A DNA stretch of 25,147 nt from Brachyspira pilosicoli (GTDB lineage Bacteria; Spirochaetota; Brachyspiria; Brachyspirales; Brachyspiraceae): NCBI RefSeq assembly GCF_019402445.1, contig NZ_SRZM01000130.1, positions 1 to 25,147 of the forward strand, given 5' to 3'. The translations under genes and the position numbers were made by a program. Positions 8,672-24,853 of this stretch are shown here, piece after piece (within the stretch, counting starts at the first letter, position 1; each line of letters opens with the position of its first letter). Below the pieces are notes generated by a model. It did not search any database. It was not told where the DNA came from and saw only the letters and a list, made by a program, of their open reading frames with translations.

Positions 8672-8684
8672 AATTAATATATAA

Positions 8685-8814
8685 ATCTTCGGGGCTAGGT
8701 GAAATTCCATACCGGCGGTAAAGTCCGCGAGCCTTTTTGATGTTTCTTTCATTCAAAAATGGCAGATTTGGTGCAATTCCAAAACCGACAGTTAAAGTCT
8801 GGATGGTAGAAGAT
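8685..8814 (+). ncRNA. FMN riboswitch (RFN element)
   Basis: The sequence carries the conserved RFN blocks in order: ATCTTCGGGGC, GGTGAAATTCC, ACCGGCGGTAAAGTCCGCGAGC, then GGCAGATTTGGTG, AATTCCAAAACCGACAG and AGTCTGGATGG, closing with GAAGAT. The 5' ATCTTC (8685-8690) pairs with 3' GAAGAT (8809-8814) to form P1. FMN binding should stabilise P1 and reduce expression of the downstream riboflavin genes. A terminator follows about 35 nt later, so control is probably transcriptional. Confidence 0.97.
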
Positions 8815-8849
8815 GTTTTTAATGTAAACTACATGTCAAAAAAATAATG

Positions 8850-18306: not shown

Positions 18307-18346
18307 AATAAGAGGCTAGATATTAAATGATATTTAGCCTCTTATT
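18307..18346. terminator. Bidirectional terminator between celB and the U32 gene
   Basis: A 17-bp stem (18307-18323 with 18330-18346, one G-U pair) with a TAAATG loop contains AAGAGGCTA/TAGCCTCTT. It starts 13 nt after the celB stop and its right arm covers part of the stop codon of the minus-strand U32 gene, so it serves both convergent genes. Only short T-rich runs follow on either side. Confidence 0.7.
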
Positions 18347-20498
18347 ATTTTATATAAATCTCACCAGTTTTATTTTTTATATTCTCTAAAATAAAGCTTG
18401 TTTTATTATGCACCCTCACACAATCAAATATTACAATATTTCCTTTGTGGTCAATAATATCTTCTTCTTTGCATTTAGAGCACCCAACAGACATACTCTT
18501 TGGACAGAAGGCAAAGTTCATAGCAGGAATCAAACCTTCTTTTATAGATAATGTGTGTTTTAAATTTTTACCTGCCTCAATGGCTGATATGACAACATCA
18601 ACTCCTAATTTATATAAAAAGTCTACAGTATAGTTATTAATTGCATTAAGCCCGATTCCAGCCCATAATATAGCTTTTCCTTTTAATGCTTCAATATGCC
18701 CTAAGTTATTGCATATTACAATCATATTATTTGTTTTTTCTACTATATTTTTTATCACTTCTATATCTTTATCAAATGTTACATGAGGAAGAATTATTCC
18801 ATCTATTTTTTTATTTTCAAAAAGCTTAATTATATTTTCATCATAAACATTTGGAAATAATATTTTTTTGTCATAATGAATATCAGAATATAAATTAATT
18901 TTCTCTTCATTGCCTGCAATTAAAACTTTTATATTTGTATTTGGGTAATTAATATTTGTGTATATATTTTTATTATAATTAATTTTTTTTGATTGCATCA
19001 AGATATTTTCTAATTTTTCAATTAAACCTCTTCTTGCTTCATTTAAAATTTTAACAGGTATAAAAGGATTTTTGAATTTTTCTTCTATATTAATATTTTC
19101 AAATTCAAATACGGTTCCTCCTGTTTTTGAAAGAGAATTAAAAATATCTTCTTTAGTTGTTGCTTTAGTTTTAGCTTCTTGAAGTGTGTAATCGCTTATA
19201 TATTCTATATTGTTTAGTCGCTCATCATATTTACTTGTAACTACTAATTTTATTTTTTCATTATTAAACCCAATAATGCAACTTAAATCAAGCAAATGCT
19301 TAAAATTATCACTTTCAATTATTTTATCTGCCTCGTCCATTTGAAGTTTATCAGTGGTTCTATAAACTTCATCACCTACATTTACATTTTTTATAACAGC
19401 CGAAAAATTCAAATTTCCTTTTGCTCTTTTTACTCTCACATTATCTTTATATAAATCAGAAATCTGCATTCCTACTTGACCGCTATCTCCAAATGAAAGC
19501 CCATCATAAACATTTAATTCTTTTTCTGCTTTTATATATATTTTATTTTTCTTATAAGCTACAACTTCTCCTATATATTCACCGTCATGACTAGGCTTAT
19601 AATTTTCAAAAATATCTTTTGAATTATAATAATACCCTTGAGAAAATCCGCCTCTATTAAAAATCTTCATCAAACTTTCTTTATATTTTTGGGTAGGTAT
19701 ATCTTTATTTTCTAAAGCCAAATCAATTGCCTGTCTATATATTGAAGTTGTGATTGCTGCATATTCGCTTCTTTTAGCACGTCCTTCTATTTTAAAAGAA
19801 GTTATTCCGCTTTCTAGTAAATTTGGAATTATATCAATAGTCATTAAATCTTTAGTGCTTAGAGGATAATCGGTTTTTCCTCCAGTATATTCCATTCTGC
19901 AAGGCTGAGCACATGCTCCTCGGTTTGCACTTCTGCCTCCATGCAAATAAGAATAAGCACATTGCCCAGAAAAACTTACGCATAAAGCTCCATGCACAAA
20001 AGTTTCAAGTTCTATGTCTGTGTTATCTCTAATATATTTTATATTCTCTAAACTCATCTCACGTGCTAGAACCACTCTGTCAATGCCAATGCTTTTAAGC
20101 AGTTTTACACTATCTAAATTGTTACAAGACATCTGTGTGCTTGCATGCATGGCAATATTTAAATTATTTCTAACAATATCTATAATTCCCAAATCCTGAA
20201 CTATAATAGCATCGGCTCCCAAATCAGAAACACTTTTTATTAATGGAAGTACTTTATCAATTTCATCATTATAAACTAAAGTATTGACTGTAATATAAAC
20301 ATTCACATTTCTTAATTTTGCAAACTTTATATTATTTTCTAGAGCCTTTTCATCGAAGTTTTCTGCAGCACCTACTCTCGCATTAAAACTTTTAGTGCCA
20401 AAATACACAGCATCAGCCCCTGCATTAACAGCAGCCTTTAATCCCCTCTCATCTCCAACAGGTGCGAGCAGTTCTATTTTTTTGTTTTTATTATTCAA
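18345..20498 (-). CDS. Peptidase U32 family protein, RlhA/YdcP-like
   Basis: This 717-residue protein has the U32 family core in its N-terminal half: ELLAPVGDERGLKAAVNAGADAVYFG (9-34, the family start), QDLGIIDIVR, HASTQMSCNN and the block ELETFVHGALCVSFSGQC. Cysteines 173, 180, 196 and 200 match the four-cysteine arrangement thought to hold an iron-sulfur cluster in this family. The C-terminal half is longer than in small U32 proteins and ends with a second cysteine cluster (CPKSMSVGCSKCK). In E. coli the long member RlhA is needed for a 23S rRNA C2501 hydroxylation; that role is likely but not proven here, and the old collagenase label is doubtful. The start is a TTG with AGGAA 6-7 nt upstream; no suitable ATG lies near the conserved start. 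Confidence 0.88.
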   Translation of the reverse strand: MNNKNKKIELLAPVGDERGLKAAVNAGADAVYFGTKSFNARVGAAENFDEKALENNIKFAKLRNVNVYITVNTLVYNDEIDKVLPLIKSVSDLGADAIIVQDLGIIDIVRNNLNIAMHASTQMSCNNLDSVKLLKSIGIDRVVLAREMSLENIKYIRDNTDIELETFVHGALCVSFSGQCAYSYLHGGRSANRGACAQPCRMEYTGGKTDYPLSTKDLMTIDIIPNLLESGITSFKIEGRAKRSEYAAITTSIYRQAIDLALENKDIPTQKYKESLMKIFNRGGFSQGYYYNSKDIFENYKPSHDGEYIGEVVAYKKNKIYIKAEKELNVYDGLSFGDSGQVGMQISDLYKDNVRVKRAKGNLNFSAVIKNVNVGDEVYRTTDKLQMDEADKIIESDNFKHLLDLSCIIGFNNEKIKLVVTSKYDERLNNIEYISDYTLQEAKTKATTKEDIFNSLSKTGGTVFEFENINIEEKFKNPFIPVKILNEARRGLIEKLENILMQSKKINYNKNIYTNINYPNTNIKVLIAGNEEKINLYSDIHYDKKILFPNVYDENIIKLFENKKIDGIILPHVTFDKDIEVIKNIVEKTNNMIVICNNLGHIEALKGKAILWAGIGLNAINNYTVDFLYKLGVDVVISAIEAGKNLKHTLSIKEGLIPAMNFAFCPKSMSVGCSKCKEEDIIDHKGNIVIFDCVRVHNKTSFILENIKNKTGEIYIK

Positions 20499-20719: not shown

Positions 20720-21253
20720 TTAAAAAATATTTTCTAAAAAGTTTTTCAGATCATTCAAATAGATATTATCAAAGTCAACATAAGGTGTTAAATCAAAATC
20801 TTCAGCTTTAATATTATTCTTAAAACCAAATCCGCTCATATAGGCGAATACTTTTGATTTTTTAGCTTGATGTTTTAAATTGGGTGTTTGGTTAATTAAA
20901 TAATCTATACAGCTTTCATAATTTTCATAACATTGAAGTACTTCTTTATATATTGCTATTTTCTCAATTAATGTTTCTAAATTTCCAATATCTTTATTAT
21001 TTGGAAATAGAAATATTTTATTATTTTTTATATCTAATTTATTAAGCTGATTTTCTATATTAATCTTTGATTCATTATAATCATCGTCAGCATCAAATAT
21101 TATTATAAAATCTTCCTTTTTTAATTCCTTATGATTTACAATATTATCTTTTCCTCCTATTGATACTATTTTAGTATAGTTTCTAATATTTAAATATTTT
21201 AAATAAGACTCTAGAAATTTTTTATCTGAATCGCCTTCAACAATAATTCTCAT
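20720..21253 (-). CDS. Small TOPRIM-domain protein (DUF3226-like) paired with an AAA ATPase
   Basis: This 177-residue cytoplasmic protein consists essentially of one TOPRIM-like domain. The N-terminal IIVEGDSDKKFLESYL (3-18) contains the conserved acidic Glu6, and IIIFDADDD (50-58) supplies the DxD pair (Asp54, Asp56) that would bind magnesium. IGGKDN (32-37) and FLFPNNKDIGNLETLI match the pattern I associate with DUF3226 proteins. TOPRIM domains are nucleases or nucleotidyl-transfer enzymes; in OLD, Gabija GajA and PARIS AriB they are effectors. It starts 2 nt after the ATPase stop, so the two are translationally coupled and likely act as one complex. The family name is from pattern memory and uncertain; the TOPRIM assignment is better supported. 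Confidence 0.7.
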   Translation of the reverse strand: MRIIVEGDSDKKFLESYLKYLNIRNYTKIVSIGGKDNIVNHKELKKEDFIIIFDADDDYNESKINIENQLNKLDIKNNKIFLFPNNKDIGNLETLIEKIAIYKEVLQCYENYESCIDYLINQTPNLKHQAKKSKVFAYMSGFGFKNNIKAEDFDLTPYVDFDNIYLNDLKNFLENIF

Positions 21254-21255
21254 TA

Positions 21256-22269
21256 TTAGTCTCTCATTTCATTATTATTTTCTATGAGGTTTGAAAAATT
21301 TTCTTGACTGTAATTTATCACGTCAATATTGTTTTCTTTATTATAATATACATTATAAACGGAAAGCATATCTTTATAGTTTTTTTCTATTAAACATTCA
21401 TTTAAAATTTCAAGTAATTCTTTATTATGAGTAGTTATAAAAAATTGTAGCTCATATTCTTTAGATAAAGTTAAAATATTTTCAAGTAAAGTTTTAATAC
21501 TTTCAAAATGCATTCCATTTTCAATTTCATCAATAACAATATATTTATTTCCAGCAACCATTGAAGCTATTATTGATATATAAGTCTGAAATCCTTTGCC
21601 CATATATTTAATATTTATTGTATGATTTAAATTTTCTAAACTTACTACTATAGTATTTCCTAGAAATCTAATATCATTTATTTTATTATCAAATTGTTTA
21701 TATATTTCTCTAAATTTTTCAATATAATCATTATTTGATAGTATTTTTTTTAAATTATTATATAAAGTAAGATTATTTTCAAAATTTTCTACTGTTATAA
21801 ATATAATATCATTATAAATTTTATCTTCTGGAATTATTGTGATATTATTATCTTTATAATTGTATTCAACAGAGAATATTTTTTCATCATTATCTTTTTT
21901 TATGAATAAAAGTTTATTTATTAAATTATTTCCATTATTATTCCTTAAAATTGCAAAACTATTTATATTATCTTTTTGTATCTTTATATTAATATTTTTT
22001 TTATCAAAAATATAATTCAAAGATATTACATTGTTATAATTATAATCATGAAATAATGATTCAAAAGCATCATCATCATTAAATATACTTCTTAATGCAA
22101 ATAAAATGTATAATGATACAGGAGATTGTTCTAAAGAGATGTATATAGCTTCAAGCAAAGAAGTTTTTGAAGTGTTAGCTTTACCTATGAAAAAATTAAT
22201 ATTTTTAAAATTATCTATTTTTAATTTCTTTATTCCTCTAAAATTCTCTATCTCTAAACTTTCTAACAT
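21256..22269 (-). CDS. OLD/AAA15-type ATPase, partner of the TOPRIM protein
   Basis: This 337-residue protein is an SMC/ABC-like ATPase of the AAA_15/AAA_21 group. The N-terminus MLESLEIENFRGIKKLKIDNFKNINFFIG is classical for OLD/RecF-like ATPases. The P-loop is unusual: GKANTSKTS (29-37) has Ser34 where the invariant last Gly of Gx4GK[ST] is expected. A signature-like MGKGFQTYISIIASM (223-237), Walker B YIVIDEIENG (243-252) with Glu248, and the H-loop FITTH (277-281) are present. The middle 50-200 is very rich in Asn, Asp and Lys and poorly conserved-looking. There is no TOPRIM domain at its C-terminus; that function is supplied by the next gene, 2 nt downstream. Such split ATPase/TOPRIM pairs are typical of anti-phage modules. 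The ribosome site is weak (AGAGAA). Confidence 0.82.
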   Translation of the reverse strand: MLESLEIENFRGIKKLKIDNFKNINFFIGKANTSKTSLLEAIYISLEQSPVSLYILFALRSIFNDDDAFESLFHDYNYNNVISLNYIFDKKNINIKIQKDNINSFAILRNNNGNNLINKLLFIKKDNDEKIFSVEYNYKDNNITIIPEDKIYNDIIFITVENFENNLTLYNNLKKILSNNDYIEKFREIYKQFDNKINDIRFLGNTIVVSLENLNHTINIKYMGKGFQTYISIIASMVAGNKYIVIDEIENGMHFESIKTLLENILTLSKEYELQFFITTHNKELLEILNECLIEKNYKDMLSVYNVYYNKENNIDVINYSQENFSNLIENNNEMRD

Positions 22270-22651
22270 TGTAGTTCTCTTTATTTTATATTTTTATTAA
22301 TTATATATTTTTTTCTGATTATATACAAGTAATTAAAATAATTTATACTATATATGTATATTGACTTTTGTATTTTAATTATTTATACTTTTAAAAGTTG
22401 TATTATATAAGAAATAATAATAAAGCTAATTTCCAAATTAGTAATGTAAGTCTACATACTTATATATTAGTAATAAGTCGCTTAACGTTTTGCAAGGCAG
22501 CATTACTTGCGTAATAGCAATGATATGAAAGTATATCATTTTATATATAGTAATAATAAAATATAATTTATAAAAATTGTGAGCATCTAGCAAATTTATT
22601 TGATAGAGTTTGATTAGCGAACAATTTTTATTAGTAATAATAGGAACTAAA
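22270..22651. other. Hairpin-rich non-coding region between the ATPase and ankyrin genes
   Basis: This 382-nt stretch has a plus-strand promoter at 22361-22389 and several inverted repeats downstream: CTAATTT-CC-AAATTAG (22426-22441), GCAAG/CTTGC (22492-22510), ATTAC-TTGC-GTAAT (22502-22515), AATGATAT-GAAAGT-ATATCATT followed by TT (22519-22542), and a 9-bp stem AAAAATTGT/ACAATTTTT (22572-22580 with 22621-22629) enclosing an inner hairpin. Local GC content rises around 22475-22520. No convincing protein gene is present. It is either a long leader of the ankyrin gene or a small RNA plus a shorter leader. Confidence 0.5.
22361..22389 (+). promoter_or_regulatory. Plus-strand promoter before the ankyrin gene
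   Basis: TTGACT (22361-22366) and TATACT (22384-22389) are separated by exactly 17 bp. The nearest plus-strand gene starts about 260 nt downstream, so the transcript has an unusually long untranslated leader or encodes a small RNA. Confidence 0.6.
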
Positions 22652-23674
22652 ATGCTAAAAAAATATATTGTGTTAATTATCGTTGGAGTAGTTTTAATGG
22701 TCAATGATTCTTATGGTATAACTCAAGATGAAAGAAATTTCCTTCATGCATGCCGTTATGGTCAAATGTATGTAATTGAAGAATTAATTGATAAAGTTAA
22801 TATTAATGTTCAAGATGAAGAAGGATTTACTCCTTTAATGAATGCTGTAACAGAAGGAGAAATAGAGGTTGTTAAAATTTTATTAGAGCATAATGCAGAT
22901 GTTATTAAAATAAAAGATAATAAGGGAAGAAATGCATTTTTCTGGGCTGCTGTTTTAGATGAACTTGAAATCTTAAAACTATTTGAAAAATATAATCCTG
23001 ATTTTAATGTGTCAGATAATTATGGTTCTAATGTTTTCTTTTTTACTAGAAAAAAGGAAACCGTTAATTATTTCCTTCAACATGGTGCAGATATAAATAA
23101 AAAAAATAAATCTGGAAGAACTCCTTTAATACAGCATTCTTTAGCATATGAAAATCAAGAACATGTAAAGTTTTTACTTGAAAAAGGTGCTGATATTAAT
23201 GCTCAGGATAATGAAGGTGTTACTACATTGATGTTTGCTGTTCAAACTGATAAAGTAAAAATAATAGATATATGTTTATCAGAAAATGCAGATATTAATA
23301 TAAAAGATAATGAAGGAAAAACAGCTTTATTTCATACAATATTATCTTTTGGTGTTTTAGAGAATGTTAAGGCAATGACGGAAGATATGTTTGGAGATCA
23401 TGCTAAAACAGACTATATAAAAGATTATATGAATCAGAAGAAAATGGAGGAAACAGATACGGCTATTAGACTTATAAAATTATTAGTATCTAATGGTGCC
23501 GATATTAATGCTCAAGATAACAAAGGAAACACTTTATTAATGTATGCTATAGAACTTCGCAATGAACCTCTTATAAATGAGATATTAAAATTAAATCCTG
23601 ATGTGAATATAAAAAATAAAAAAGGAAAAACAGCTAATGATATAGCAAAGGAGTGCGGTTATAAAATAATATAA
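22652..23674 (+). CDS. Exported ankyrin-repeat protein
   Basis: This 340-residue protein begins with a signal peptide (MLKKYIVLIIVGVVLMVNDSYG, probable cleavage near residue 22) and then consists almost wholly of ankyrin repeats, about eight. Good units include DEEGFTPLMNAVTEGEIEVV (55-74), KSGRTPLIQHS (153-163), NEGVTTLMFAVQTDKVKII, NEGKTALFHTI and NKGNTLLMYAIELRNEPLI; each ends in the typical GADIN or PDVNI turn. One repeat carries an insertion of about 36 residues (232-268). Ankyrin repeats bind other proteins; with the export signal a periplasmic, surface or host-directed role is likely, but the partner is unknown. The frame extends upstream to a TTG at 22610, but the ATG at 22652 has an AGGA site and gives a proper signal peptide, so it was chosen. 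Confidence 0.9.
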   Translation: MLKKYIVLIIVGVVLMVNDSYGITQDERNFLHACRYGQMYVIEELIDKVNINVQDEEGFTPLMNAVTEGEIEVVKILLEHNADVIKIKDNKGRNAFFWAAVLDELEILKLFEKYNPDFNVSDNYGSNVFFFTRKKETVNYFLQHGADINKKNKSGRTPLIQHSLAYENQEHVKFLLEKGADINAQDNEGVTTLMFAVQTDKVKIIDICLSENADINIKDNEGKTALFHTILSFGVLENVKAMTEDMFGDHAKTDYIKDYMNQKKMEETDTAIRLIKLLVSNGADINAQDNKGNTLLMYAIELRNEPLINEILKLNPDVNIKNKKGKTANDIAKECGYKII

Positions 23675-23700: not shown

Positions 23701-23841
23701 TTATTTTGTATTTCTGCTTCCGCATTTAGGACATTTATGCTTAGAAAGTATTATATCCACAATATTGATTTTGTGAGTTTTTTCAAATATTTTACCGCAA
23801 TCATTACATTTATAAAGGAAAGGTCCATTAAAAGGCAACAT
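23701..23841 (-). CDS. Small zinc-ribbon protein (FmdB-like), 46 residues
   Basis: This short gene encodes 46 residues with two CxxC knuckles: YKCNDCGKIFE (C12, C15) and HKCPKCGSRNT (C37, C40). The spacing of about 21 residues between knuckles fits a zinc ribbon, and YKCNDCGKIFE resembles the start of FmdB-type regulatory proteins. It has an excellent AAGGAG ribosome site 6 nt before the ATG, which makes it a real gene despite its size. It starts 37 nt after the stop of the HrgA-like gene on the same strand, so the two may be co-transcribed. It converges with the ankyrin gene. The molecular function is unknown; nucleic-acid or protein binding is the usual role of such ribbons. Confidence 0.75.
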   Translation of the reverse strand: MLPFNGPFLYKCNDCGKIFEKTHKINIVDIILSKHKCPKCGSRNTK

Positions 23842-23878: not shown

Positions 23879-24853
23879 TTAATTAGGATTATTAAATCTT
23901 CCGCTATTCATTAATCCATTCATGAAAACAACTCTATCATCATTATCATGTTTTAATAATCTATTTACATCTTTTATAAATAATTCAAATTGTTTATTGT
24001 TACAAAGTTTATGCATAGTGTCTATATCTAAATTATTTCTTTTTTGGGCAGAAAATAATATTTCTGAATCTTCTGGGTTATAATAATTTAATTTTATTAC
24101 TCCTACTCCAAAAGACTGATTTAATCTTTTAATCTCTTCCATTAATTCATCATAATTATTTTCGTCTATATTCATAGCAACAAGCCAAGCCTCATTAGCC
24201 CATCCAGAATTTGATAATGCTTGAAAATAATATTCTGTTAAATTACTAAGTGTAAGTTTTAATTTTAATTCATAAGCATAAAGTTCTGTAGTTGGCAGGT
24301 TTATATGATTAAATAATTCTAAAACTGATTTATTAATATAATCTTTAAAAGTAACAGCTACAATATCAGGAGTGCCCCATTTCATTTTTCCTTTTAGGTT
24401 AACATCTGTGGCATTAGCATTAATTGTTTTAGAATATATTTTCATTGAGTGTAAATATTTTGTGAGCGGTATATGCAAATCTTCTTCTAATATTTTTTTA
24501 TTTGTAGAATTGTTTTCAACGATATCATCTGCATCTTCTTCATCTATTGAAGCATTAATTTCATTTATTAAATTTTGATTAGAGCTATTTATTTTGCTTT
24601 TTAATAAAAATTTACCTTTACCAACTTTAGTAAAGATTGTAGTATCTGGATTATATTTAATGTCCGAATATATTTTTGAACTGAGACTATCCTTTGGGGT
24701 TTTACTCATTTGAAAATCTGGATTATTTTGTTTGCCTTTTTCTTCTATTTGTTTATCATAACCTAGTTCGCAAGCCTTTTCCCATATCTCATCAACTTTC
24801 ATAGGTACATCGCTTTGCTCTAAAACTTTTTTAGCTGCATCATAATATGTCAT
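23879..24853 (-). CDS. hrgA: HrgA-like protein: HARE-type winged-helix N-terminus and PD-(D/E)XK-like core
   Basis: This 324-residue protein starts with a domain (1-85) resembling HARE-HTH: TYYDAAKKVLEQSDVPMKVDEIWEKACELG, then the SLSSKIYSDIKYNPDTTIFTKVGKGKFLL strand-turn segment. After an acidic linker (100-125) the C-terminal part has a pattern like a PD-(D/E)XK nuclease: WGTPDIVAV with Asp163, then YAYELKLKL with Glu195 and Lys197, followed by YYFQAL with Gln211. This architecture matches COG2958/HrgA, known from a Helicobacter pylori locus where it replaces a restriction gene. Nuclease activity is inferred from the motif only. The ATG is preceded by AGGAG. Location near the ATPase/TOPRIM pair supports an accessory defence-type role. 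The family call is moderately secure. Confidence 0.7.
   Translation of the reverse strand: MTYYDAAKKVLEQSDVPMKVDEIWEKACELGYDKQIEEKGKQNNPDFQMSKTPKDSLSSKIYSDIKYNPDTTIFTKVGKGKFLLKSKINSSNQNLINEINASIDEEDADDIVENNSTNKKILEEDLHIPLTKYLHSMKIYSKTINANATDVNLKGKMKWGTPDIVAVTFKDYINKSVLELFNHINLPTTELYAYELKLKLTLSNLTEYYFQALSNSGWANEAWLVAMNIDENNYDELMEEIKRLNQSFGVGVIKLNYYNPEDSEILFSAQKRNNLDIDTMHKLCNNKQFELFIKDVNRLLKHDNDDRVVFMNGLMNSGRFNNPN

Follow-up and report, generated by a model that had tools for sequence, protein, structure and literature searches.

What is the function of two adjacent genes in Brachyspira pilosicoli, the first encoding an ATPase and the second a stand-alone TOPRIM protein? The genes lie in a stretch of 25,147 nucleotides (nt) of contig NZ_SRZM01000130.1, here called the window, and a sequence-only reading of it had taken them for an unclassified minimal split module with a candidate anti-phage role. 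We report that a standard defence-system library places the pair in AbiL, and we propose that it is probably a chromosomal abortive-infection module, in which the ATPase restrains a TOPRIM nuclease and senses infection by its variable middle. The two open reading frames (ORFs), their coordinates, the minus strand and the 2-nt gap between them were confirmed by ORF reading:

21256-22269, minus strand: AbiLi-type ATP-binding cassette (ABC) ATPase of the OLD/RecF type, 337 amino acids (aa), ATG start (Pfam, PADLOC, AlphaFold2 fold)
20720-21253, minus strand: AbiLii-type stand-alone TOPRIM protein, DUF3226, 177 aa, ATG start (Pfam, PADLOC, conserved residues)

Profile matches place the gene pair in AbiL

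The searches proposed by the sequence-only reading, against Pfam and a set of defence-system models, gave matches for both proteins. In Pfam, the ATPase matched AAA_15 (2e-13) and AAA_21 (5.7e-10), and the TOPRIM protein matched DUF3226 (9.3e-16, above that family's cut-off), with OLD-like_TOPRIM just under the cut-off. In PADLOC, the ATPase matched the AbiLi profile PDLC02336 (E=1.5e-65, 220 bits, residues 1-336 on profile positions 1-340 of 340) and the TOPRIM protein the AbiLii profile PDLC02338 (E=4.1e-11, 41 bits, residues 34-175 on positions 10-122 of 125). The pair thus shares with AbiL of Lactococcus lactis its two genes, ATPase then TOPRIM, and nearly full-length profile matches; it differs in lying on a Brachyspira chromosomal contig. 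The AbiLi profile is not specific alone, with weak matches in 13 of 14 control genomes, and the arrangement required for AbiL, adjacent genes on one strand with the ATPase first, was found here. By the library the pair belongs to AbiL, an assignment made via profiles. Since PADLOC names both genes AbiL, the pair is no new type, and the notion of an unclassified module was not upheld. The second-best profiles were those of the candidate system PDC-M38, which match both genes but score below AbiL (M38A 112 bits for the ATPase, M38B 32.5 bits for the TOPRIM protein). The closest organism-named matches, among the matches listed, were from Brachyspira (TOPRIM 83% and ATPase 88% identity).

Several better-known relatives were considered and rejected. 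The sequence-only reading had described a split ATPase and TOPRIM, with a TOPRIM resembling DUF3226 rather than DUF4435 and both proteins shorter than those of PARIS, and on these points it was accurate. The TOPRIM of AriB is of the DUF4435 type, and a Pfam search up to E=1 found no DUF4435; AriB was not among the six PADLOC matches, and the AriA profiles reached 48.0 and 46.8 bits against the 220 bits of AbiLi. The solved AriA has 464 residues, and the chains taken as AriB have 305-306. GajA of Gabija (61 bits for the ATPase) and the OLD nucleases resemble the pair in TOPRIM fold, acidic residues and ATPase fold, but their domains are fused. OLD of class 1 or 2 was set aside because there are two ORFs here and not one polypeptide, and Gabija because the two domains are separate and the direct neighbours are a U32 peptidase-family gene and an ankyrin-repeat gene, not a GajB helicase.

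Conserved residues and predicted folds

Glu6, Asp54 and Asp56 of the TOPRIM protein, singled out from the sequence at the start, proved to be conserved: across an alignment of 27 relatives E6 is almost always kept (at least 90%), and D54 and D56 are invariant, as are G34, E93 and K132. D10 is likewise conserved, and by spacing alone D10, E93 and K132 may correspond to E404, E508 and K562 of OLD (PMC6755086, excerpt). In the ATPase, the P-loop comprises residues 29-36 (GKANTSKT, window 22162-22185) and Walker B lies around I246-D247-E248. Serine replaces the second glycine of the P-loop in the subfamily of the window, whereas the consensus of the wider alignment has glycine.

The AlphaFold2 model of the ATPase (predicted local distance difference test, pLDDT, 87.9; predicted template-modelling score, pTM, 0.89) resembles Rad50/SMC heads, PtuA, GajA, OLD and AriA. 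For the predicted fold of the TOPRIM protein, a second structure aligner placed OLD C-terminal nucleases closest. Foldseek gave no match for it at E<=0.001 (best 6nk8, 2.4e-3), so that the link to OLD rests on the second aligner and the residues. A TOPRIM profile search of PDB sequences up to E=1 gave no match.

The AbiLi alignment keeps an invariant C-terminal E-x-R (window 21256-21275). Since its codons are purine-rich and stand just ahead of the TOPRIM start, this conservation may in part be due to the ribosome-binding site that serves the TOPRIM gene.

The ATPase and TOPRIM genes are linked in many phyla

Of 26 Brachyspira genomes, 17 carry DUF3226 matches, up to four each, and nine carry none. 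The 31 matches represent 30 genes, one being split in two pieces, and were compared with 44 AbiLi-type matches selected from a longer list. All 31 lie downstream of an AbiLi-type match on the same strand; the gap is at most 48 nt in 28 pairs, and 194, 294 and 1163 nt in three that involve broken genes or partial matches. Outside the genus, a scan of named genomes with the ATPase alignment gave at least 429 confirmed stretches; of the best 80 of these, 72 had a DUF3226 ORF (E<1e-5) directly downstream. The taxa include Campylobacter, Helicobacter, Bacteroidales, Mucispirillum, Deltaproteobacteria, one cyanobacterium and one planctomycete. The misses among the best 80 were two contig ends (L115, L137), three loci with broken or weak TOPRIM matches (L121, L131, L157) and three without a TOPRIM match (L104, an orphan, L105 and L144). 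The sequence-only reading had staked its case on homologues being adjacent; they nearly always are, both within the genus (all 31 matches) and among the named loci (72 of the best 80), and the pairing is not chance.

Two kinds of unpaired ATPase were seen. At L105 (7121-8356) and L144 (2169-3272), in Prevotella/Bacteroidales, the AbiLi-like ATPase is followed by an ORF that by eye, from its opening residues, resembles a cytosine-5 methyltransferase, and then by one like an Hsp90/MORC-type ATPase; this is perhaps a different system. In Brachyspira there are orphan AbiLi-like ATPases of 332-344 aa, and no TOPRIM ORF was found downstream of the nine examined (L104, in the same place as L064; L065, L014, L013, L016, L017, L079, L080 and L067). 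At L104/L064, L014 and L013 the next gene is the same, encoding a protein that starts MINILCYGDSNTFGS and looks like a GDSL esterase by eye. The orphans appear, again by eye, to lack the C-terminal E-x-R.

The middle of AbiLi varies independently of its C-terminus

The allele pattern within the ATPase points to one part of it as exchangeable and probably trigger-sensing:

21610-22140, minus strand: variable middle of AbiLi (roughly residues 44-220), which is proposed to sense the trigger (segment identities, allele clustering)

We compared two copies at the orthologous site, in genomes G000 and G016. Identity was 87% in the DNA of the flanking U32 gene, 86-92% per 90-nt window in TOPRIM DNA, and 60-73% in the DNA of the ATPase middle, where protein identity was 35%; the first 48 residues of the ATPase were 88% and the last 52 residues 94% identical. 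The allele analysis was then based on 85 ATPases of 325-380 aa, drawn from the 91 numbered P0121-P0211; the protein search had found 234, of which 120 were listed. Except in G016, TOPRIM partners were presumptively assigned to alleles where the longest contig had the same length in both searches. Among 903 pairs with ends at least 85% alike, identity of the middle was bimodal: below 50% in 178, 50-70% in 18, and at least 70% in 707. The end cluster that contains the window has 23 sequences and five middle alleles (10, 5, 5, 2 and 1 members), and the other four clusters (45, 9, 7 and 1 members) have one allele each, so the swapping pattern is confined to the subfamily of 23. Of its 253 pairs, the 187 that join different alleles have identities of 29-46% in the middle, 77-96% in the N-terminus and 76-100% in the C-terminus; for the 66 pairs within an allele the values are 70-100%, 94-100% and 83-100%. 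Those TOPRIM partners that were compared share 86-93% identity with the one in the window.

The C-terminus is therefore independent of the alleles, and the N-terminal 48 residues follow them in part, which leaves the left boundary of the middle uncertain and the right one clear. C-termini can be identical across alleles (P0130 of A and P0141 of D; P0126 of A and P0137 of C), and P0140 and P0147, both of allele D (87% alike), have C-termini that agree to 83%. Such contradiction between C-terminus and middle is what recombination predicts. In G016 a middle of allele D (86% to P0140) is joined to a C-terminus that is 99% identical to an allele C protein and 93% to P0140; as this assembly is a single contig, it speaks against a metagenome-assembly artefact. 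In nine Brachyspira orphan ATPases used as a control, middles track ends at every distance.

These findings suggest that the middle of AbiLi is a module that can be exchanged and probably senses the trigger, while the presumed killing part stays much the same. We give about even chances to a more specific version, in which the middle, perhaps with the N-terminus, is a recognition cassette swapped between strains under phage pressure by way of the conserved C-terminus/TOPRIM and gene start. Type I restriction enzymes swap their target-recognition domains, and the cassette exchange may be likened to that. Two observations count against it. No recombination donor was found in the set, where proteins with dissimilar ends never had similar middles. 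Further, where G000 and G016 have the same residue, the middle shows no deficit of shared codons (45 of 57) against the ends (30 of 41 and 68 of 84), the TOPRIM gene (122 of 150) or U32 (446 of 622), so that this test gave no support for an older divergence of the middle; it has little power in an AT-rich genome, and its baseline was not computed. Both points, together with the partial agreement of the first 48 residues with the alleles, would suit very rapid replacement of amino acids in a surface lobe in place of recombination. We consider this alternative unlikely, given the bimodal identities, the contradiction between C-terminus and middle, and the low power of the codon test. We found no earlier report of an exchangeable AbiLi middle in the open-licence PubMed Central (PMC) papers searched, and no description of an AbiL trigger in the excerpts of such papers.

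The locus is gained, broken and lost at one site

The surroundings of the pair comprise the following genes:

18345-20498, minus strand: U32 peptidase-family gene, conserved flank outside the system (Pfam PF01136)
22610-23674, plus strand: ankyrin-repeat gene between the HARE-HTH gene and AbiL, context (Pfam ankyrin families)
23879-24853, minus strand: HARE-HTH domain gene, flank (Pfam HARE-HTH 6e-12)

The pair sits just upstream of the U32 gene, for which 25 of the 26 genomes show a long DNA match, split in G005 into stretches of about 800 and 400 nt; G001 shows only a 55-nt match. Turnover was surveyed in the genomes other than G001, G005, G009, G013 and G020. The site beside U32 holds an intact pair in G016 and a broken ATPase, 1.8 kb from U32, in G022. 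In G024 the copy retains ATPase residues 1-101 and TOPRIM residues 21-175, and what lies between them is unrecognisable. In five genomes (G019, G008, G004, G003 and G007) all that remains is a TOPRIM tail of 27-47 residues, from residue 130 or 131, that begins at most 1 nt from the stop codon of the HARE-HTH gene; the site of the G007 tail is inferred, as U32 is on another contig there. No TOPRIM match (1e-6) was found upstream of U32 in 12 genomes, some of the examined stretches being short (G006, G023, G012, G014, G018, G025, G010, G015, G002, G017, G021 and G011). Among these, G012 has about 120 nt of the ATPase-upstream region right behind the HARE-HTH gene, G002 a 73-nt match that sets in right where the TOPRIM gene ends, and G023 a short sequence that by eye looks like the beginning of that tail. 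This turnover at one site, by gain, decay and loss, fits a defence locus.

The HARE-HTH gene had been read as an HrgA-like neighbour in keeping with a defence setting. It matched no PADLOC model and is present in 16 of 26 genomes, and in 11 of the 13 whose HARE-HTH surroundings were examined no intact AbiL lies beside it. Because of the missing model and these 11 genomes, it is weak evidence of defence, and we rejected it as a co-defence partner.

Some further features were noted. On the stretch that carries their AbiL copy, G016 and G024 also have an ankyrin homologue (65-66% identity). In G024 (C8:2030355-2032288, locus L183) the ATPase and TOPRIM pieces are contained within long open frames of 496 and 541 aa. 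Between the HARE-HTH and ankyrin genes of the window there is a 46-aa ORF (23701-23841, minus strand) with two CxxC pairs, zinc-ribbon-like by eye. A flavin mononucleotide (FMN) riboswitch (RF00050, 116 bits, 8681-8818, plus strand) stands ahead of genes that by eye resemble those of riboflavin synthesis.

Proposed function and its alternatives

From the gene pair, its family matches, predicted folds, acidic residues, linkage, turnover and allele pattern, we infer the following mechanism. AbiLi, an SMC/Rad50-like ABC ATPase that probably oligomerises, would keep the TOPRIM nuclease AbiLii inactive, and its variable middle lobe would contact the trigger and so sense infection. A phage product would alter or free the complex, AbiLii would then cut nucleic acid by two-metal chemistry, and growth would halt before phage release. 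The best-studied split model is PARIS, in which the ATPase sequesters the TOPRIM protein until a phage protein frees it to cut tRNA (PMC11455837; PMC12409363, excerpt). By this analogy we lean slightly towards tRNA or other RNA over DNA as the substrate of AbiLii. Lactococcal AbiL is a two-gene phage abortive-infection system, and AbiLii of Fusobacterium nucleatum inhibits growth of Escherichia coli (PMC3985639, excerpt); AbiL-like genes have been reported from Lactobacillus brevis prophages (PMC6805780, excerpt). The anti-phage role suggested by the sequence-only reading is very probably right.

Some evidence pulls the other way. The match to the AbiLii profile is moderate (41 bits, with PDC-M38B at 32.5), and an excerpt of PMC10440598 mentions AbiLii together with RloB and not with DUF3226, so that the AbiL label may span more than one TOPRIM type. 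Using tblastn, the ATPase (at 1e-5) and the TOPRIM protein (at 1e-2) had no match in 72,556 plasmid records, among which the plasmid of the prototype is possibly missing, and the ATPase had none in phage records at 1e-5. According to the same excerpt of PMC3985639, AbiLii of F. nucleatum was not neutralised by its AbiLi, and in E. coli the lactococcal AbiLii showed no toxicity, which makes a simple toxin-antitoxin reading doubtful.

The main rival is a standing complex as in OLD or Gabija, in which ATPase and TOPRIM would stay together and cut phage DNA, with no free toxin and no RNA cleavage. We regard it as a real if less favoured possibility: although the genes are separate as in PARIS, and no GajB-like helicase is among the direct neighbours, both facts are still compatible with a standing complex. 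A plain toxin-antitoxin or selfish module with no phage role seems improbable. Two AAA and TOPRIM_OLD pairs, which were compared with AbiL, have been assayed for toxin-antitoxin action in E. coli (PMC10440598, excerpt), but the frequent loss at the site, with five genomes left with a TOPRIM tail, does not look addictive, and a changing middle module is easier to explain by changing targets. A housekeeping TOPRIM enzyme beside an unrelated ATPase, such as an RNase M5-like maturase, which the sequence-only reading had named as one finding that would overturn it, is largely refuted. The active sites of OLD, RNase M5 and DnaG are alike (PMC6755086, excerpt), and DUF3226 was matched in one of 14 control genomes, that of Methanocaldococcus jannaschii. 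However, no M5 family appeared among Pfam or NCBIfam matches up to E=1, DUF3226 is distributed patchily and in multiple copies (absent from nine of 26 genomes), and every DUF3226 match in the genus adjoins an AbiLi-type match.

Taken as a gene pair, it is an ordinary addition to the known system AbiL, but it links the uncharacterised Pfam family DUF3226, which was named in no open-licence PMC paper found, to a defence pair in many phyla. The cassette reading, if true, would identify the phage-sensing part of AbiL. The allele pattern provides a concrete, testable guess at the phage-recognising part of an OLD-type defence ATPase, and the natural alleles on a similar background offer material with which to test it.
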